Assembly: GCF_001720485.1 (NCBI RefSeq)
Contig: NZ_CP017114.1
Coordinates: forward strand, 2,480,001 to 2,544,000
Reading direction: 5' to 3'
Length of the DNA: 64,000 nucleotides
Source of the DNA: Cobetia marina
Lineage (GTDB): Bacteria; Pseudomonadota; Gammaproteobacteria; Pseudomonadales; Halomonadaceae
Of this stretch, positions 15,255-54,278 are shown piece by piece. Within the stretch, counting starts at the first letter, position 1. Each line of letters starts with the position of its first letter. A model generated the notes under the pieces. It ran no database searches. It worked only from the letters and a program-made list of their open reading frames with translations, and was not told where the DNA came from. The translations under genes were made by a program, and so were the position numbers.

Positions 15255-15295
15255 ACTGGGTGTCACATGACTCCCCCGAATCCAGGGGGATCAGA

Positions 15296-15652
15296 TCACT
15301 TGAACTTGTCTTCGTAGCTGGACTTGGTGGACTTGGCAGAGCTGACCTTGTCACTTGCCTTGGTCTTGGCAGAGCTGACCTTGTCACTTGTCTTGGCCTT
15401 GGCAGAGCTGGCCTTGTCACTTGCCTTGTGCTTGGCAGAGCTGGCCTTGTCACTTGCCTTGTGCTTGGCAGAGCTGACCTTGGAAGTGGCACTGTCAGTC
15501 CGGGAAGTCACCTTGGAACTGGCGTTGTCCTTGGCTGTGGTGTACTGGGACTTGGCACTGTCCTTCGCCGCATCAGTGTAGGAATTTGCCATTGCCACTG
15601 AGGAGCCAGCCATGCCCATTACCATGAGTGCTGCAATCGTCATCCTGCGCAT
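15296..15652 (-). CDS. Secreted Lys/Ser-rich protein with 11-residue LEA-like repeats
   Basis: A 118-residue protein. The signal peptide (MRRMTIAALMVMGMAGSSVA, cut after AMA) is followed by a hydrophilic body rich in Lys, Ser, Ala and Asp. Residues 60-103 are four tandem 11-mers of the form SSAKHKASDKA or SSAKTKASDKV, the periodicity seen in group 3 LEA proteins and in amphipathic desiccation-protective helices. No enzyme motif is present. A paralogue with an almost identical signal peptide lies at 15997-16335. A protective periplasmic role under osmotic or drying stress is only inferred. Confidence 0.7.
   Translation of the reverse strand: MRRMTIAALMVMGMAGSSVAMANSYTDAAKDSAKSQYTTAKDNASSKVTSRTDSATSKVSSAKHKASDKASSAKHKASDKASSAKAKTSDKVSSAKTKASDKVSSAKSTKSSYEDKFK
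15344..15475 (-). repeat. Four tandem 33-bp repeats inside the LEA-like gene
   Basis: Each 33-bp unit encodes one 11-residue repeat (residues 60-70, 71-81, 82-92 and 93-103). The first two units encode the same peptide, and the other two differ at two or three residues, so repeat number is likely to vary between strains. Confidence 0.8.
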
Positions 15653-15905
15653 CGTACCTACTCCTCTCTACTCGCGAATTGTCCCCTTCCTGACCTGAAG
15701 ACCAGGGTCCAGGGAGACAGGGTGGTGGCACACTAACTCCTTGATATTTATGTTCGCAAGCCAGTCAGGCTCGCTTGACGAATGCTTGCATCTTGTCGAG
15801 GTGAGCGTATGAAACACGCGACGTCAGCGTCTGATCACGCACACCAGAGGCACATCGCCTGCCGCGCCAGACGGGCGTGGATCTCAAGGAGCGTGCCCGG
15901 CATGC

Positions 15906-15941
15906 AAAGACCCCCTGCAACCGGAGGCTTCAGGGGGTCTT
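15906..15941 (-). terminator. Hairpin terminator of the second LEA-like gene
   Basis: Stem AAGACCCCCTG / CAGGGGGTCTT around a 13-base loop, about 55 bases beyond the stop at 15997. The trailing T-run is short. Confidence 0.6.
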
Positions 15942-15996
15942 GTCAACAGCGGGCAACTGCCCGACTCAAGCCGTGCCGAGCAAAAGCGTCATGCCA

Positions 15997-16335
15997 TCAG
16001 TGGCGCTCGTTCTTGAGCACGTCTGCATAGTTCTTCTTCTGATAGCGGGAATTGGTATCGCTCGCCTTGTTGCTCGCCTTGGACCTGGCATCGCTCGCCT
16101 TGTCGCTCACCTTGGACTTGGCATCGTGGGCCTTGCTGGCAACGTGAGAGGACTTGTCAGCCACCTGCCCGGAAGCGGCCGCCTTGTGGGATTGGGCAGA
16201 GGTCCTGACGCTGTCCTTGTGCTGGGTGTACTGGGACTTGGCAGCGTGGCCATCATCAGCCGGGTTGCCGGCCATCGCTACGCTGGAACCGGCCATGCTG
16301 GCCACCATCAGTGCCGCGATCGTCAATGTGCGCAT
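15997..16335 (-). CDS. Secreted Lys/Ser/His-rich protein, paralogue of 15296-15652
   Basis: A 112-residue protein with signal peptide MRTLTIAALMVASMAGSSVA (cut after AMA), nearly the same as that of the neighbouring paralogue. The body is low-complexity and hydrophilic with less regular 11-mers (SKAHDAKSKVS, DKASDARSKAS, NKASDTNSRYQ) and the shared KSQYT segment. Each gene has its own terminator and a gap of about 340 bases separates them, so they are separate units from an old duplication. Confidence 0.68.
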   Translation of the reverse strand: MRTLTIAALMVASMAGSSVAMAGNPADDGHAAKSQYTQHKDSVRTSAQSHKAAASGQVADKSSHVASKAHDAKSKVSDKASDARSKASNKASDTNSRYQKKNYADVLKNERH

Positions 16336-43155: not shown

Positions 43156-44799
43156 TTGAACAACGACTCTCTCTATCAATTCTCGACCATTACCGTTCTT
43201 CTCCTGCTGATCGCCTTCTATGGCGGTACCTACCTGATCACTCTCACCATTCGCAAGAAAAAGGAAGATGCTGACGAGTTCATGGTGTCCAACCACCGTG
43301 TCGGCTTCGGCATGGGCGCCGCCAGCATGACCGCCACCTGGATCTGGGCCGCCTCCTTCTATGCCGCTGCCACCTCCGGCTATACCTATGGCGTGTCAGG
43401 CCCGATCCACTATGGATTCTGGGGCGCGCTGATGATCCTGTTCATCTATCCCTTCGGCCGCCGCTTCCGCAAGCTGGCCCCCAACGCCCATACGCTGGGC
43501 GAGCTGATCCATGCACGCCACGGTTCGAGCAGCCAGCTGATTCTGGCCTTCTCCAACGTGCTGGGCAGCATCATCAGCCTGATGGTCAACTTCACGGCCG
43601 CCGGTGCGCTTGTCTCGGTGCTGTCGCCGCTGTCCTTCCAGACAGGCGTCATCCTGGCGGGGGTCGGAGTGCTCTGCTATACGCTCTGGTCGGGCTTCCG
43701 CGCCTCGGTATTGACGGATTTCGCCCAGCTGGTGGCACTGATGGCCATCGCCATCGTCATCATTCCGGCCGTGTTCTTTGCCATGGGTGGCCCTTCGGAG
43801 CTGGTGGAAGGGCTCAAGCATGTCACGCCGCAACAGGCCGACTTCTTCTCGACTGATGCCATCCTCAATCAGGGGGCGCCCTTCTTCGTGGCCGTGCTGG
43901 CGTATGCCATCGGCAATCAGACGATTTCCCAGCGCCTGTTCGCGGTCAATGAAGATCACATCAAGCCGACCTTCATCACGGCTACCGTCGGCTACGGTGC
44001 CATCGTGATCGGTCTGGGGATGATCGGTCTGATGGCGCTGACCCTCGGGGTCGAGCCGCTCAATGGCGACATGAACAACCTGATTCCGCAGATGGTGTCG
44101 GAGTACCTGCCGCCCTTCTTCATCGCCCTGTTCTTCATCCTGGTGATCGGCTCGCTGTCCTCCACCGCTGACTCCGATCTCTCGGCACTCTCGGCGATCA
44201 TGATGGCAGACGTCTACGGCAAGAACATCGCCCGTGGCAAGGCCGACCCTCGCCGCATGTTGCTGGTCGGTCGTCTGACGATGATCATCGCCACCGTGCT
44301 GGGGATCGTCTTCGCCAGCTTCTCCCTGGATATTCTGGTGATGCTGGTCTTCGTCGGCGCACTCTGGGGCGCCATCGTCTTCCCGGTGATCGCCAGCTGC
44401 TTCTGGGATCGCATCACCAATCTGGCCTTCACCAGTTCCGTCCTGGTCGCCATGGTGGTGTTCTGCATGGCACGCTTCGAGTGGGTGCCGCTGGAGGGTA
44501 TCAGTGGGCTGATCTTCGAGCTGCTCGCCAGCATCGGCGGCGGCGTCATCATCGGCCTGATGGTCTTCGGCTTCCTCGGTCGCATCGCCGGACTGGTCGC
44601 CGGCGTGCTGGCCATGCTGGCCATGGTCATCTTCGCGACCGGCGAACTGCGTGACTACACCGTGCTGCTGGCCTCGCTCACGGCCTACGGCACCAGCACC
44701 CTGGTCTGCGTGATCATGAGTCTCGCCAGCCGCCAGCCGCGCTTTGACTTCACCACCATCACCGACAAGGTCGGCCATTACGACGAGTCCCTGACCTGA
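43156..44799 (+). CDS. Sodium:solute symporter (SSS family)
   Basis: A 547-residue inner-membrane transporter with about 13-15 hydrophobic segments. It begins at a TTG at 43156, eight bases after TTGGAGG; the GTG at 43126 precedes that site. Typical SSS parts are ADEFMVSNHRVGFGMGAASM, AIGNQTISQRLFAVNEDHIK and FILVIGSLSSTADSDLSALS, the last near the second sodium site. The substrate is not evident (urea- and organic-acid-type members look alike). It is followed by a 42-residue small subunit, and its 3' end is duplicated at 48183. Confidence 0.88.
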   Translation: MNNDSLYQFSTITVLLLLIAFYGGTYLITLTIRKKKEDADEFMVSNHRVGFGMGAASMTATWIWAASFYAAATSGYTYGVSGPIHYGFWGALMILFIYPFGRRFRKLAPNAHTLGELIHARHGSSSQLILAFSNVLGSIISLMVNFTAAGALVSVLSPLSFQTGVILAGVGVLCYTLWSGFRASVLTDFAQLVALMAIAIVIIPAVFFAMGGPSELVEGLKHVTPQQADFFSTDAILNQGAPFFVAVLAYAIGNQTISQRLFAVNEDHIKPTFITATVGYGAIVIGLGMIGLMALTLGVEPLNGDMNNLIPQMVSEYLPPFFIALFFILVIGSLSSTADSDLSALSAIMMADVYGKNIARGKADPRRMLLVGRLTMIIATVLGIVFASFSLDILVMLVFVGALWGAIVFPVIASCFWDRITNLAFTSSVLVAMVVFCMARFEWVPLEGISGLIFELLASIGGGVIIGLMVFGFLGRIAGLVAGVLAMLAMVIFATGELRDYTVLLASLTAYGTSTLVCVIMSLASRQPRFDFTTITDKVGHYDESLT

Positions 44800-44882
44800 T
44801 CGGGATGCTTGCCACAAGCGCCCCGGCGGCCCTTGGCGTCGCCGGGGACTTTCCTACTGCACATTTCAGGAGACACACGCCC

Positions 44883-45011
44883 ATGACATTCCTGTTTGCC
44901 ACCTATGTCCTCATCTGGCCATTGCTGACCCTTGGCGTACTCGCCGTGATCTGCGGCGCCGTGGTGCGTGACAGTCGTCGCGCTCGCAAGGAGCACCGCG
45001 AGCTGGTCTGA
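44883..45011 (+). CDS. Putative transporter small subunit, single-helix membrane peptide
   Basis: A 42-residue protein with one hydrophobic segment (about residues 4-28, FLFATYVLIWPLLTLGVLAV) and a strongly basic end (RDSRRARKEHREL). AGGAGA lies nine bases ahead of the ATG. Such peptides are encoded directly after certain SSS-type transporters and are annotated as small subunits; their role is unknown. A truncated second copy lacking the start and half of the helix lies at 48305-48377. Confidence 0.7.
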   Translation: MTFLFATYVLIWPLLTLGVLAVICGAVVRDSRRARKEHRELV

Positions 45012-48182: not shown

Positions 48183-48377
48183 GAGTCTCGCCAGCCGCCA
48201 GCCGCGCTTTGACTTCACCACCATCACCGACAAGGTCGGCCATTACGACGAGTCCCTGACCTGATCGGGATGCTTGCCACAAGCGCCCAGGCGGCCCTTG
48301 GCGTACTCGCCGTGATCTGCGGCGCCGTGGTGCGTGACAGTCGTCGCGCTCGCAAGGAGCACCGCGAGCTGGTCTGA
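48183..48377 (+). pseudogene. Truncated second copy of the symporter 3' end and small subunit
   Basis: This 195-base stretch repeats 44718-45011 with one clear mismatch (48289). It contains the last codons of the symporter including its stop, part of the spacer, and the last 24 codons of the small subunit. A 99-base segment (between two copies of CCCTTGGCGT at 44830 and 44929) is missing, removing the small subunit start codon. The near-identity indicates a recent duplication. No product is expected. Confidence 0.9.
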
Positions 48378-49057: not shown

Positions 49058-49467
49058 AAGCTGTCACCGGCTTCATTACCGGGCTGGTCTTCAGCCTCGG
49101 CCTGACACTCAGCGGCATGACCGACCCCGCGCGTGTCGTCGGCTTTCTCGACGTGGCCGGAGACTGGGACCCCACGCTGATCTTCGTGCTTGGCGGGGCG
49201 GTCATCACCACCTTCCTCGGTTATCGCCTCGCCTGGCGACGCAGCACTCCCCTGTTGGGTGAGCGATTCCAACTGCCTACACGCCGCGATATCGATGGTC
49301 GCCTGCTGCTCGGCGCGGCCCTGTTCGGTACCGGCTGGGGCCTGAGCGGATACTGCCCCGGGCCTGCCATCGTCTCCAGCAGCGCCATGAGTCTGCCATT
49401 GGCGGGTTTTCTACTGACGATGCTACTGGGCTGGTGGCTGGCCACGCGCCTGACTCGCGCTCACTGA
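49054..49467 (+). CDS. YeeE/YedE-family half-transporter, second subunit
   Basis: A 137-residue membrane protein with about four hydrophobic segments. The start MKAVTGFITGLVFSLGLTLS and the motif GTGWGLSGYCPGPAIVSS, with its conserved Cys, identify the second half of the transporter. It is coupled to the first by a four-base overlap and is followed by a strong inverted repeat. The transported compound is presumably a sulfur species; the sequence does not say which. Confidence 0.82.
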   Translation: MKAVTGFITGLVFSLGLTLSGMTDPARVVGFLDVAGDWDPTLIFVLGGAVITTFLGYRLAWRRSTPLLGERFQLPTRRDIDGRLLLGAALFGTGWGLSGYCPGPAIVSSSAMSLPLAGFLLTMLLGWWLATRLTRAH

Positions 49468-49491
49468 TCCGAGCGCCACGCAAGAGAAAAT

Positions 49492-49539
49492 CCTTGCATG
49501 AGAAACGCCCGCCGAATGGCGGGCGTTTCTCATGCAAGG
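49492..49539. terminator. Long perfect inverted repeat after the YeeE/YedE pair
   Basis: Two 22-base arms (49492-49513 and 49518-49539) pair perfectly around a GAAT loop. The inner part GAAACGCCCGCC / GGCGGGCGTTTC is an ordinary terminator stem; the outer CCTTGCATGA / TCATGCAAGG extends it well beyond normal length. Confidence 0.75.
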
Positions 49540-49662
49540 CGAGTCACCACGACCACACGGCGCCCTTTCTCTCACGGGACCTCATTGCGATGATCTCGCT
49601 GATCAACAGCCCCGTGGTTCGTGTGCTGGATGAAGTCACATCCACATGAAGCGTCGAAAAGC

Positions 49663-49688
49663 CAAAAAAAAGCCCGCCAATGGCGGGC
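49663..49688 (-). terminator. Terminator downstream of the secreted-protein array
   Basis: Minus-strand stem GCCCGCC / GGCGGGC with a 3-base loop and eight T. It lies about 265 bases beyond the last gene of the six-gene array. Confidence 0.7.
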
Positions 49689-49952
49689 AGGGAATGTCGG
49701 GACAGGACATTCAGGACAGGAAAGCGTTTGAGCAAGGGTTCTGCCATTGACGACGAGTGCGGTCTTGCGTTCGGGTCAAAACACTTGCTCAAGCGTTCTT
49801 CTCTCTCACGAGTTGTTCTCTGGAGCACTGACCATCAGGAGACAACGTGATGGTCAGTGGGTCCATTCAGCAACTGACAGAGGTAGGTCGATGGCATATC
49901 GGCGTCCTTGGCTGTCTTGCAGAGTCGGGGACTATTGCGTTGCCGCGAGCGG

Positions 49953-50300
49953 TTACGCGCTCTCGTTCAAGGCATGTTCGACGCGTGTGGCAGAGACACT
50001 CTTGCCGGCATCGTTGACGTAATCCGCCGAATCGCTTGCCAGTGCACGGGTGGTGCCCTGGATGCCGGCGTTGCTGATGGATGTCTGGACGCGGCTGGCA
50101 GCGACACTCATGCCGGTTTTCACGACATCATCATGATGCAGTGTGGCTTGCTGAGTGACCGGCTGTGCCTGACCCATGATCACGCGATCACTGAGGGTGG
50201 CACGTACGCGGGCATCGGCTTCGCTGTCATTGGCAGAGGCCACGCCAGTGGCGGCAACGGACAATGCGGCAATGGCGAATAGAGACTTGAGAGATTGCAT
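49953..50300 (-). CDS. Secreted repeat-motif protein, array member 1 (most diverged)
   Basis: A 115-residue protein with a signal peptide (MQSLKSLFAIAALSVAATG, cut after ASA). Its mature part contains two copies of the motif G-x-S-V-x-A-x-R-V: KTGMSVAASRVQTSISNAG and DAGKSVSATRVEHALNESA at the C-terminus. The start follows AGGAG. It is the last gene of a six-gene tandem set on this strand. No known family is recognised; the length and motif are shared with its neighbours. Confidence 0.65.
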   Translation of the reverse strand: MQSLKSLFAIAALSVAATGVASANDSEADARVRATLSDRVIMGQAQPVTQQATLHHDDVVKTGMSVAASRVQTSISNAGIQGTTRALASDSADYVNDAGKSVSATRVEHALNESA

Positions 50301-50377
50301 GGGGGTTCTCCTATTGAAAAAGGTCATGTCAGTACAGACACCTGGCCTGCAAGCGTCTGACGCAGACATCGGGCGTC

Positions 50378-50716
50378 TCAGACGTTGACGTCGCTCACGG
50401 CGTGACGAACACGGGTGCCGGCAACGCTATCGCCTGAATCATTGGCGACATCGAATTCCTGCAGGTGGATGGAGCGGTCATGGCCACGGATCTCGTCGTC
50501 ACCGGAGGCAATCTGGAAACGGCCTGCAGAAGTGCTCATGCCGGTTTCCGCGAAGGTCGCCTGGCCTGTCGGTGCCTGCTGAGCGGCACCATGGATGACA
50601 CTTTCACTGACGTTGTGCTGGACACGCTGGGCGGCCGGGCTGTCATCCGCCGCAAAGGTGGCGGTGCTGACGGTGGCGAGAGCGGCGGCGGCGATCAGGG
50701 TCTTGAGAGTGTTCAT
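50378..50716 (-). CDS. Secreted repeat-motif protein, array member 2 (diverged)
   Basis: A 112-residue paralogue with the signal peptide of members 3-5 (MNTLKTLIAAAALATVSTA, cut after TFA) and a more diverged mature part: ETGMSTSAGRFQIASGDDEI and DSGDSVAGTRVRHAVSDVNV. The region upstream of the gene and the first third are nearly the same as in the other units, so divergence is concentrated in the middle and end. Confidence 0.65.
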   Translation of the reverse strand: MNTLKTLIAAAALATVSTATFAADDSPAAQRVQHNVSESVIHGAAQQAPTGQATFAETGMSTSAGRFQIASGDDEIRGHDRSIHLQEFDVANDSGDSVAGTRVRHAVSDVNV

Positions 50717-50783
50717 GATGATTTCCTCGATGAAGATGATGTGATGATCAGGCCTGGAAATGCAGGCCAGGGATGACGGTCAA

Positions 50784-51122
50784 TCAGACGTTGCTGTCGC
50801 TCAGGGCGTGCTGAACGCGGGTAGCGGCGACACTCTTGCCAGCGTCATTGTCGAAGGCCTGTTCACGGCTGGCGGTAGCGCTGCCGTGCCCTTCAATGGA
50901 CGACTGGGTCAGGGCGGTCTCGACACGACCTGCCGCGACGCTCTTGCCGGTTTCCGCGAAGGTGGCCTGAGCCGTCGGGGCCTGCTGGGCGGTGCCGACG
51001 ACGACGTCCTGGCTGACGGACTGCTGGACACGCTGGGCAGCCGGGCTGTCATCCGCCGCGAAGGTGGCGGTGCTGACGGTGGCGAGAGCGGCGGCGGCGA
51101 TCAGGGTCTTGAGAGTGTTCAT
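50784..51122 (-). CDS. Secreted repeat-motif protein, array member 3
   Basis: A 112-residue protein differing from member 4 by a single residue (His for Gln in SSIEGHG). It carries a signal peptide and then AAQRVQQSVSQDVVVG, ETGKSVAAGRVETALTQSSI and DAGKSVAATRVQHALSDSNV, the last two being copies of one 20-residue unit. Only a handful of silent or conservative base changes separate it from members 4 and 5. Confidence 0.7.
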   Translation of the reverse strand: MNTLKTLIAAAALATVSTATFAADDSPAAQRVQQSVSQDVVVGTAQQAPTAQATFAETGKSVAAGRVETALTQSSIEGHGSATASREQAFDNDAGKSVAATRVQHALSDSNV

Positions 51123-51189
51123 GATGATTTCCTCGATGAAGATGAAGTGATGATCAGTCCTGGAAATGCAGGTCAGGGATGATGGTCAA

Positions 51190-51528
51190 TCAGACGTTGC
51201 TGTCGCTCAGGGCGTGCTGAACGCGGGTCGCGGCGACGCTCTTGCCAGCGTCATTGTCGAAGGCCTGTTCACGACTGGCGGTAGCGCTGCCTTGCCCTTC
51301 AATGGACGACTGGGTCAGGGCGGTCTCGACACGACCTGCCGCGACGCTCTTGCCGGTTTCCGCGAAGGTGGCCTGAGCCGTCGGGGCCTGCTGGGCGGTG
51401 CCGACGACGACGTCCTGGCTGACGGACTGCTGGACACGCTGGGCAGCCGGGCTGTCATCCGCCGCGAAGGTGGCGGTGCTGACGGTGGCGAGAGCGGCGG
51501 CGGCGATCAGGGTCTTGAGAGTGTTCAT
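51190..51528 (-). CDS. Secreted repeat-motif protein, array member 4
   Basis: A 112-residue protein identical to member 5, and its 406-bp unit including the upstream region is identical too as far as can be read. The signal peptide and the paired GKSVAA-x-RV motif are as in member 3. Such identity points to a very recent duplication or active gene conversion. Confidence 0.7.
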   Translation of the reverse strand: MNTLKTLIAAAALATVSTATFAADDSPAAQRVQQSVSQDVVVGTAQQAPTAQATFAETGKSVAAGRVETALTQSSIEGQGSATASREQAFDNDAGKSVAATRVQHALSDSNV

Positions 51529-51595
51529 GATGATTTCCTCGATGAAGATGAAGTGATGATCAGTCCTGGAAATGCAGGTCAGGGATGATGGTCAA

Positions 51596-51934
51596 TCAGA
51601 CGTTGCTGTCGCTCAGGGCGTGCTGAACGCGGGTCGCGGCGACGCTCTTGCCAGCGTCATTGTCGAAGGCCTGTTCACGACTGGCGGTAGCGCTGCCTTG
51701 CCCTTCAATGGACGACTGGGTCAGGGCGGTCTCGACACGACCTGCCGCGACGCTCTTGCCGGTTTCCGCGAAGGTGGCCTGAGCCGTCGGGGCCTGCTGG
51801 GCGGTGCCGACGACGACGTCCTGGCTGACGGACTGCTGGACACGCTGGGCAGCCGGGCTGTCATCCGCCGCGAAGGTGGCGGTGCTGACGGTGGCGAGAG
51901 CGGCGGCGGCGATCAGGGTCTTGAGAGTGTTCAT
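51596..51934 (-). CDS. Secreted repeat-motif protein, array member 5
   Basis: Identical in protein sequence to member 4 (112 residues). The upstream 67 bases, with the ribosome site GAGGAAATCATC before the ATG, are also the same in members 3-5. Each gene could therefore be translated separately from one long message or from its own promoter. Confidence 0.7.
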   Translation of the reverse strand: MNTLKTLIAAAALATVSTATFAADDSPAAQRVQQSVSQDVVVGTAQQAPTAQATFAETGKSVAAGRVETALTQSSIEGQGSATASREQAFDNDAGKSVAATRVQHALSDSNV

Positions 51935-52001
51935 GATGATTTCCTCGATGAAGATGAAGTGATGATCAGTCCTGGAAATGCAGGTCAGGGATGATGGTCA
52001 A

Positions 52002-52346
52002 TCAGACGTTGCTGTCGCTCAGGGCGTGCTGAACGCGGGTCGCGGCGACGCTCTTGCCAGCGTCATTGTCGAAGGCCTGTTCACGACTGGCGGTAGCGCT
52101 GCCTTGCCCTTCAATGGACGACTGGGTCAGGGCGGTCTCGACACGACCTGCCGCGACGCTCTTGCCGGTTTCCGCGAAGGTGGCCTGAGCCGTCGGGGCC
52201 TGCTGGGCGGTGCCGACGACGACGTCCTGGCTGACGGACTGCTGGACACGCTGGGCGGCCGGGCTGTCATCCGCCGCGAAGGTGGCGGTGCTGACGGTGG
52301 CGAGAGCGGCGGCGGCGATCAGAGTCTTGAGATTCAGAGTTTTCAT
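52002..52346 (-). CDS. Secreted repeat-motif protein, array member 6 (first in transcription)
   Basis: A 114-residue protein with the same mature sequence as members 4 and 5 but a slightly different start (MKTLNLKTLIAAAALATVS), an extra two residues and a different upstream region with GAAAGGAAAA before the ATG. It is the promoter-proximal gene and presumably carries the original control region. Confidence 0.7.
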   Translation of the reverse strand: MKTLNLKTLIAAAALATVSTATFAADDSPAAQRVQQSVSQDVVVGTAQQAPTAQATFAETGKSVAAGRVETALTQSSIEGQGSATASREQAFDNDAGKSVAATRVQHALSDSNV

Positions 52347-53127
52347 TGGGTTTTCCTTTCTATGTCCTGGGCAATATTGCCCTTGTGATGTCGTATGCAG
52401 TCTTGGCTGCATCCGTCTAGCTTGTTAACAGACTAATGATTATTGCGCTATCACACTAGCCGTGCTGCTGGCAGCTCACTGTTTCCATCAAAGAACCAGA
52501 TTGCGTTGCCTGGGCATTGCCCTGCCCCTGAGGAGTGTTGGTGAACCTCAAGAGGTACAACCTTCAATCCTCTTCTGCATCACTTCTGTACAATCTTGAA
52601 GGTGCGGACATCCCATGATCGAGAGCGGATCAGATGCTTGGCACTGTCCAGGACACTGCCGTATGACGTTTAAACTTTGGTCGCAATCATCAGAAAGGCA
52701 TTCATCAGCAACTTGTCCTCTTACCCTGCTGAAACCCTCACCGTTGTGCTTGATGAGTATTACGCTTGAGCAAACGGGTTGGATGCATGCCATCTTCAAA
52801 AAAGTCGCAGGCGTCTTGACAGATGCCTGCCGTCGACCAGATCCAGACTGCCGTTTCGTGCAATGTGGAGTGAGCGCATTGTGGACGAATCCCGCATCGG
52901 CACATATCCCCCACTGGAACAGCATTGATTCCACTGGCGAACCAATAAAAGCCTGTATTGAACGTCTGGTCAGGCAGCAGTCTACGACTTTGGTAATAAC
53001 CGCAGCGTTATCAATCGCTTACGAAACCCTCTGATGTTGTCCTCGGATCGCCCACATGAGGCATGCCCTCACCTTTGCGCTACCGACGTTTCGTGACAGC
53101 CGGCAAAAAGGCATCGTCAGACACGAA
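52347..53127. other. AT-richer stretch upstream of the array, no supported gene
   Basis: About 780 bases with visibly lower G+C (near 48%) than the flanks. It must contain the array promoter (TTGTTAACA and ATTATTGCG near 52427-52450). Frames at 52548-52934 (minus) and 52615-53034 (plus) overlap each other, are Cys/Ser-rich and match nothing recognisable. Possibly decayed foreign DNA. Confidence 0.4.
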
Positions 53128-53159
53128 AACGCGGGGCAATCCAAGGATTGCCCCGCGTT
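53128..53159 (-). terminator. Terminator of the ADP-ribosylglycohydrolase gene
   Basis: Perfect 15-base arms AACGCGGGGCAATCC / GGATTGCCCCGCGTT with a 2-base centre, then TTTT on the minus strand, 25 bases after the stop. Confidence 0.8.
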
Positions 53160-53183
53160 CAGTCAGCTAGCGTTGCGCGTATC

Positions 53184-54278
53184 TCAATAGCCCGGGTATT
53201 TCTCCCAGACCCACCGCTCGTCCTTGCCACCCCCGTCGGTATAGAGCTCCCAGCGAGCGCAATCGTGCAGGTCCTGGGCGACCTCGCCGATGACCTCTCG
53301 CAGTTCAAGCGGCTCCAGCCAATCAGCAGGTATCGCCTCTTCTCCCCATTGCGCCCCGAGCAGGTTGCCCGTGATGGCCCCCGTGGAATCCGAATCCCCA
53401 TCATGATTGACCGCGATCTGGATCGCGGAGCGGAAATCCCGCGCGGTGAGCGCGCAATACACGGACATCGCCAGGGCCTCTTCCGCGATCCATCCCAACC
53501 CCAGCATCACGACAGCCACCTGCGGCGCAGTGTCGGACTCGGCAAGCTCGCAGGCTTGCTTCAGGGCCTGCATGGTCTCTTCGCAGCCTGATTTGCGCTC
53601 GAGAATGCGCATGGCGTGCGCAAGTGCCTGTGCCATCGAGTCACCCGCCACCAGGCATTGGGTCATCACCGCCAGCACCCCGCCCGTCAGCTGACCGGTC
53701 ACGTGGCCATGGGTCAGCGCGCAGACCTCTTCCCCGAGCGCGAAGCACATCTCATGGGAGGCTCCCATCACATGCGCGAACAAGCCGACGGGGGCCACGC
53801 GCATCACACCCCCACAGCCCTTGCTGTCGTTCTGCGCGGTGTCACTGTAGGTGCGCACATGCTTGAGCGCGGACAGACACGTCATGCCCGGGGCGCGGCG
53901 CGAATGCAGTGCCGGCTGCTTGATCAACCAGCCACTGTCCAGCCATTCCTGTTCCGTTGCCTTTTGCGTGCGTTCCCCTTGGGTGTACAGCCAACGTTCA
54001 TAGGCACTGTTGACCAGGCTACCTTGCGTCGTGATGCCTCTCAGACAGCCGCGCACGTGGCTACGCAACAGACCCTCGGCGGTAAACAGTGTCATCTGCG
54101 TATCATCGGTAATCCGCCCCAGCCCGCCATAGGCCGGTGCGTAATCGCGTATTCCTTCACTTCCGAAGCGCGCCTGGATCTCCTCGTGCGACAGGAACTC
54201 CACTGCCGCCCCCAGCGCATCTCCCACCGCACCACCCAACAGGCAACCCCGAAACCGCGATGTCGTCTCAAGCGTCAT
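53184..54278 (-). CDS. ADP-ribosylglycohydrolase family protein
   Basis: A 364-residue cytosolic protein of the DraG/ARH fold. The N-terminal GCLLGGAVGDALGAAVEF, the metal-binding GRITDDTQMTLFTAEGLLRS with its DDT, and the late NHDGDSDSTGAITGNLLGA with the second Asp cluster together provide the two-magnesium site. It removes ADP-ribose from a protein or small molecule. No nitrogenase genes are present, so a DraG role is unlikely; the target is unknown. The ATG at 54278 was chosen because the family begins just before this motif. Confidence 0.9.
   Translation of the reverse strand: MTLETTSRFRGCLLGGAVGDALGAAVEFLSHEEIQARFGSEGIRDYAPAYGGLGRITDDTQMTLFTAEGLLRSHVRGCLRGITTQGSLVNSAYERWLYTQGERTQKATEQEWLDSGWLIKQPALHSRRAPGMTCLSALKHVRTYSDTAQNDSKGCGGVMRVAPVGLFAHVMGASHEMCFALGEEVCALTHGHVTGQLTGGVLAVMTQCLVAGDSMAQALAHAMRILERKSGCEETMQALKQACELAESDTAPQVAVVMLGLGWIAEEALAMSVYCALTARDFRSAIQIAVNHDGDSDSTGAITGNLLGAQWGEEAIPADWLEPLELREVIGEVAQDLHDCARWELYTDGGGKDERWVWEKYPGY

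Follow-up and report, generated by a model that had tools for sequence, protein, structure and literature searches.

The DNA analysed here (the window, 64,000 nucleotides) spans positions 2,480,001-2,544,000 of the single contig that represents this Cobetia genome. It carries a tandem array of six open reading frames, all on the minus strand between 49953 and 52346, which we named A1, A2, A3, A4, C, and D in the order of transcription (Table 1). An initial annotation of the sequence had described four gene starts exactly 406 bases apart and two units that read the same base for base. The former description applies to the starts of A2, A3, A4, and C, and the latter to A2 and A3, which have 0 differences over the 406-bp unit. 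The stops of all five genes from A1 to C are likewise spaced by 406 bp; the start of A1 precedes that of A2 by 412 bp, as the signal peptide of A1 is longer by two codons. Tandem Repeats Finder reported a period of 406, 4.4 copies, 97% matches, and a score of 3365 (the runner-up array in the window scores 254), and a perfect run at lag 406 extends over 964 bp (50887-51850). Over 406 bp, A1 and A2 differ at 8 positions, 7 of them within the first 18 nt of the register; A3 and A4 also differ at 8 positions, and A4 and C at 142, of which just 2 fall within the first 101 nt. Gene D has diverged further, sharing 49% identity with A3, and lies out of the 406-bp register. Three further family members are located elsewhere in the genome (nine in total).

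Table 1. Genes and predicted signals of the array (window coordinates)
Feature	Position	Strand	Description
Gene A1	52002-52346	-	type I, 114 aa; signal peptide MKTLNLKTLIAAAALATVSTATFA, judged by eye
Gene A2	51596-51934	-	type I, 112 aa; 406-bp unit identical to that of A3
Gene A3	51190-51528	-	type I, 112 aa
Gene A4	50784-51122	-	type I, 112 aa; differs from A3 by one amino acid (Q/H)
Gene C	50378-50716	-	type I, 112 aa; head near-identical to A genes, tail 36% different in DNA
Gene D	49953-50300	-	type II, 115 aa; last gene of the array
Predicted promoter block, 86 bp	52418-52503	-	gapless alignment before 14 family arrays in 6 Cobetia genomes
25-bp box TNC-N7-GAAACA-NN-GAGCT-N-C	52471-52495	-	within promoter block; putative regulator site
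Leader hairpin GGGC...GCCC	52369-52382	-	upstream of A1 ribosome-binding site
Intrinsic-terminator-like hairpin and T run	49672-49688	-	after gene D; likely transcript end

Pfam assignments place the array (array 1) among genes for a TRAP transporter subunit, a malate/L-lactate dehydrogenase, an ADP-ribosylglycohydrolase, a DUF6691 protein, and a LysR regulator, and a second array (array 2) beside genes for a HAD hydrolase and a DUF1853 protein. The ADP-ribosylglycohydrolase gene adjoins the array in all five Cobetia relatives, and therefore the arrays are at the same locus. This locus has four genes (A, B, C, and D) in G001, G004, and G005, and three in G002 and G003; each of the six Cobetia genomes has 3-6 family members here and 8-10 in all. 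Among these six, four A genes occur in the present genome only, where gene B is missing and three extra A genes take its place. Other repeats in the window include 122-bp and 83-bp stretches that occur twice, 99-100% identical and 3.4 kb apart (44718-45011 and 48183-48377). One occurrence covers the end of a long ORF resembling a membrane transporter and the small ORF that comes after it, and the other is a shortened remnant beside a LysR gene (kinds judged by eye). In addition, 33-bp direct repeats form two clusters about 0.6 kb apart at 15295-16145.

The array had initially been attributed to recent unequal recombination or gene conversion, and evolutionary distances support recent unequal recombination. 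Among the A copies, dS is 0.024 (A1-A2), 0 (A2-A3), 0.036 (A3-A4), and 0.062 (A1-A4), whereas comparison with the G001 orthologues gave 0.54 for A1, 0.40 for C, and 0.25 for D. Control values were 0.54 for the dehydrogenase and 0.56 for the ADP-ribosylglycohydrolase (against G001), and 0.35 for catalase (against G005). Because dS among A copies is 0-0.06 versus 0.54 for the A orthologues, these distances date the extra A genes to the time after this genome split from its relatives, three of which have one A gene and gene B. The dN/dS ratios against G001 orthologues are low (0.067 for A1, 0.085 for C, and 0.079 for D).

Exchange between units appears to have taken place at the signal-peptide end. 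In the first 33 codons, C differs from A1 at 3 of 99 positions and from its own G001 orthologue at 14 of 99; in the remaining sequence, it differs from A1 at 85 of 237 positions and from the orthologue at 20 of 237. The Fisher p values for this comparison, in which sites are not independent and the pair was chosen from 14 listed, are 0.009 for the head and 3e-13 for the tail. Since the head of C is closer to A1 and its tail closer to the orthologue, gene conversion or crossing-over in the signal-peptide segment is supported. The heads and spacers of A2-A4 resemble those of C, and so these three genes probably represent A bodies with a C-like head.

To define the family, a profile built from 30 members was searched against 201 Halomonadaceae genomes and matched six, all Cobetia. 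Single-sequence searches of these genomes (G000 to G005) gave 9, 9, 8, 10, 8, and 9 matches, i.e., 53 genes. Among 5.8 billion proteins, 25 matches were found at E up to 0.001, and at least 40 (E up to 0.01) and at least 46 (E up to 1) among the 8000 best candidates scored. Among the matches listed, those carrying names were from Cobetia, except one from Halomonas sp. SF2003 and one from a Gammaproteobacteria MAG. As delimited by these searches, the family is a Cobetia-restricted orphan. The earlier statement that no family is recognised is correct for curated families, as no Pfam or NCBIfam cut-off was reached (the best Pfam E value over 30 members was 0.0046), but it does not extend to the genus-wide family of 53 genes in six genomes. 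A search for relatives among 177,635 distinct PDB sequences returned a single match with an E value of 1.4. The regular expression S-x-A/S-x-x-R-V matched exactly three times in 44 of the 53 proteins, including all six array proteins of the window, four times in 5, and fewer times in 4. One metagenomic protein, P0039 (201 aa), joins an MmgE/PrpD N-terminal domain to the tail of the family and may be a chimeric assembly.

Two known families were considered and rejected. DUF4148 proteins are short and have a signal peptide, like the Cobetia proteins, and a short Arg/Val-containing motif behind the signal peptide adds to the likeness. The source database (UniRef) applies the DUF4148 name to some Cobetia relatives (three in one protein search and one in another). 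However, only 1 of 30 members matched DUF4148 (PF13663), with an E value of 0.13 and a score of about 13 bits, whereas the gathering cut-off is 27 bits. Ten further proteins gave one match, at 13.1 bits also under the cut-off, and DUF4148 exceeded the cut-off in none of the six Cobetia genomes, where the sub-threshold matches fall outside the arrays. The BhsA/McbA/YbiJ (DUF1471) stress proteins are of the same length class and have a similar signal peptide, and the best match to BhsA/DUF1471 (NF047859), gene C, had an E value of 2.5e-6 and 28 bits versus a cut-off of 90 bits. In a search with mature sequences, C, A3, D, and the singleton gave no BhsA/DUF1471 match. The match of gene C disappears without the signal peptide, and thus the similarity does not reach into the mature part.

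Family proteins have n-, h-, and c-regions and an A-x-A motif, as judged by eye, which suggests that they are exported via a cleaved signal peptide. They lack Cys, contain one to three aromatic residues after residue 22, and are rich in Ala, Ser, Thr, Gln, and Asn. The array proteins are acidic (pI 4.6-5.4), and the singleton has a pI of 8.6. An internal repeat with an offset of 35-37 residues was detected in 26 of 30 proteins; its score was reached by 0 of 500 shuffles in 19 of the 30 and by at least one shuffle in 11. Hydrophobic moments do not discriminate between helix and strand.

Codon adaptation is 0.735-0.766 for A1-A4 and C and 0.736 for the second array-2 gene. These values lie just above the 95th percentile (0.729) of 38 long ORFs in the window (mean 0.61) and fall inside the span (0.55-0.81) observed for 17 genes, picked by eye, from the ribosomal-protein region. 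Ordinary values were obtained for the singleton (0.524), the first array-2 gene (0.59), and D (0.571). Selection for dosage, as originally proposed, is therefore plausible for A1-A4 and C, which have ribosomal-protein-like codon usage; D, the first array-2 gene, and the singleton, three of the nine members, do not share this feature. Literature searches revealed no published transcript or protein data for the array genes among the matches listed.

Array genes separated into two types in a tree of the 53 proteins: type I, with the N-terminal sequence DDSPAA-x-R-VQ, and type II, with D-x-x-VR. The deep forks have SH-aLRT values of 88-93 and therefore only moderate support. In 14 of 14 promoter-led arrays, a type I gene is first and a type II gene last by regular expression, in agreement with the tree. 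A two-gene cluster in G003 that has no promoter block consists of type I genes only. Three singletons are type II by regular expression but form long branches on the type I side of the tree, and this disagreement leaves their type unsure. Although the promoter block upstream of them aligns without a gap, the proteins that head arrays 1 and 2 share only about 55% identity. It is likely that the ancestral unit consisted of the promoter, a type I gene, and a type II gene, and that the second locus was copied before the six genomes diverged.

The predicted promoter block has 37 of 86 columns invariant across the 14 arrays, but several rows are near-copies, and the 14 rows are not independent because three of the genomes are close kin. 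When a sequence model of the block was used to scan the six Cobetia genomes (150 of 784-923 first-look candidates scored per genome), the 14 promoters were the only matches below an E value of 0.4, and the next match had 0.445. A wider regulon of the block inside Cobetia was thus rejected for the candidates scored. With up to three mismatches, a short pattern had 82 matches in the present genome versus 45 for the reversed pattern, and exact matches were limited to the two family promoters. No site satisfied the rule of the promoter scan for a sigma-70-type promoter, and Rfam had no match within the window.

The GGGC...GCCC hairpin is kept in all seven aligned array-1 leaders. The fold of the 97-nt leader has a z-score of -2.21, and 4 of 200 shuffles fold equally well. 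A palindrome, GGGCAATATTGCCC, was rejected as an operator, because it is part of the leader, where an mRNA hairpin is the better interpretation. Six terminator-like sites were found in 49400-53200 versus a mean of 3.3 in shuffles; on the minus strand, none is within the array and one is behind it. A 20-pair hairpin at 49492-49539, between the DUF6691 gene and the array, is separate from this terminator-like site.

One family member has a different genomic context. In G000, G001, and G005, i.e., three of the five genomes with this catalase, a paralogue is located downstream of a pair of genes for a catalase and an ankyrin protein, which we take to be katB and ankB. The catalase and ankyrin genes are also present in G002 and G003, where the paralogue is absent, and G004, which lacks this catalase, has no such paralogue. 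Gaps of 116, 219, and 253 nt separate the catalase-ankyrin pair from the paralogue in the three genomes, where a regular expression for the promoter block had no match; because of this, the link speaks only indirectly for the array. In G003, two copies of a periplasmic-type catalase gene (2494615-2496147 and 2497124-2498662) flank one ankyrin gene (L135, G003:C1:2490000-2500500).

We favour the reading, with a probability of about 0.5, that the array is a single operon for large amounts of a small, acidic, Cys-free exported protein, which would have a stress-protective or matrix role and would have been amplified for dosage. Codon usage, the signal-peptide-like start, the repeats, and the catalase-ankyrin paralogue together favour a protein that is abundant, exported, and either protective or structural in its role, and the paralogue is the best hint at a function in stress, in the periplasm, or at the surface. 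Transcription would proceed from the promoter block to the terminator-like hairpin. The products would be abundant proteins of about 90 mature residues with three diverged copies of S-x-A-A-x-R-V-x-x-A-L, and would most likely serve, in the periplasm or on the cell surface, as non-catalytic bulk material for stress protection or for a matrix. In such a bulk role, copy number would set dosage. Recombination between units, aided by the near-identical signal-peptide segments, would both add copies and homogenise them, and types I and II would be made together and may also act together.

Several observations could also be read in other ways. The two types recall curli, in which CsgA and CsgB are the major and minor partners, and the proteins might be subunits of a secreted fibre or matrix with type I and type II in comparable roles. 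The constant order of the types, the internal repeats, and the amino acid composition described above, poor in aromatic residues and without Cys, would suit such subunits. Nevertheless, we consider this unlikely, as curlin is absent from the 21 Pfam families matched by 30 members at E values up to 1, and none of the neighbours tested at arrays 1 and 2 resembles a gene for fibre secretion or nucleation. Similarly doubtful is a function in periplasmic peroxide defence together with the KatB-type catalase and AnkB, for which the arrays would be the high-dose form. The presence of the paralogue behind the catalase-ankyrin pair in three genomes and its absence from the catalase-less one are in line with this idea. 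In Pseudomonas aeruginosa, katB and ankB form a small operon, and AnkB supports KatB, its loss leading to lower KatB activity and higher H2O2 sensitivity (PMC2830190). On the other hand, two of the five genomes with catalase and ankyrin genes do without the paralogue, the arrays have a different promoter and different neighbours, and the catalase-linked paralogues are long branches in the tree.

A further concern is whether copy number has biological significance at all, since the array could be an assembly artefact or could have grown as a repeat without selection on copy number. The identity of A2 and A3 would be compatible with a miscounted repeat, and in another assembly (a contig of 3,345,506 bp) an A-like copy is broken into two frames (P0009 and P0020), by either sequencing error or decay of the copy. 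However, A1, A2/A3, and A4 differ from each other at several sites in a genome that is one contig, all six Cobetia genomes have multiple members at the locus and elsewhere, and dN/dS of the orthologue pairs measured is far below 1. This explanation is therefore very improbable. Near-identical genes in long tandem arrays are generally regarded as unstable in bacteria, and yet 8-10 family members have been kept in each of the six genomes.

An exported, dosage-amplified protein as favoured here has partial parallels in other organisms. PrsQ1 and PrsQ2 of Cupriavidus metallidurans, which are CopQ-like, also are predicted small periplasmic proteins with several paralogues, and deletion derivatives of a silver-resistant mutant lost resistance (PMC7380067), which indicates a resistance role. 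The Cobetia copies differ in being arranged in tandem arrays. The CUP1 metallothionein arrays of yeast likewise consist of tandemly duplicated genes for a small protein, but CUP1 is eukaryotic and copper-binding (PMC4232551), whereas the Cobetia proteins have no Cys. The Cobetia arrays offer a natural system for following copy number, homogenisation, and co-expression of two subtypes among close relatives. Their mechanism of growth is ordinary; what is unusual is the order of two subtypes, the private promoter block, and a box that is shared with an unrelated exported family, and these features go beyond the initial annotation.

The evidence for the shared box came from outside Cobetia. A model scan of 81 Halomonadaceae genomes (55 candidates scored per genome) found the 14 Cobetia sites and four weak ones (E values of 0.0096-0.075), and one weak site precedes the gene of a different repeat protein, small and exported, in genus g16 (L145; motif SIDSRPGGN). 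Searches with this protein matched 4 of 201 genomes, strongly just two g16 species with three loci each. Comparison of one g16 sequence, minus its first five residues, with the profile of the Cobetia family detected no relation (hhalign probability 0.3%). A box pattern of 14 specified bases, drawn after both families had been seen, had 19 matches in 275 Halomonadaceae genomes versus 1 for the reversed control. Thirteen of the 19 are at 13 of the 14 Cobetia promoters and four precede the multicopy secreted g16 repeat family; the other two are in G099 (204 nt before the nearest listed same-strand frame) and in G040 (inside long reading frames). The four g16 sites count as one coincidence, not four, because they are copies of each other and because of the way in which the pattern was drawn. 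At two of the four, the start codon was inferred from the other two, as the reading frame is open upstream through the site. Outside the fixed bases, the Cobetia and g16 consensus boxes match at 8 of 16 of the first-30 positions, versus 4 expected. Further downstream, the similarity of the two promoters is not significant, with matches at 13 of 42 positions and 175 of 1000 shuffles as good. At the divergent g16 loci L152 and L153, the box was absent by both the regular expression and the 14-base pattern.

That one regulator recognises the box before both families is a real possibility. A broader and more tentative proposal, rather unlikely as a whole, is that a shared regulator in Halomonadaceae drives genus-specific exported repeat proteins via GTTTC-N7-GAAACA-NN-GAGCTTCC. 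The promoter and the signal-peptide end would then form a conserved export cassette, and its payload would be copied, swapped, or replaced by recombination in the signal-peptide segment, so that the same switch would control a different, unrelated multicopy repeat protein in each genus. The occurrence of the box before two unrelated exported repeat families can be tested through the prediction that both respond to one regulator and to one stress.

Similarity to the 3' half of the promoter block was also found in a core sequence (TTAGTCTGCGAAT) at L142 (1743-1777), L143 (1701-1735), and L144 (2165-2201), with model E values of 0.0096, 0.0133, and 0.0611. It precedes a glyoxalase-I-like gene (identified by eye) in two species of one genus, and in the third case, in another genus, no clear gene. 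A few such matches are expected by chance in 81 genomes. Finally, at L156 and L147 (G040:C1:673744-674379), a second small exported gene, similar in its C-terminal end, comes after the g16 repeat-protein gene on the same strand, and hence the g16 family, too, may be organised as a short array behind the box.
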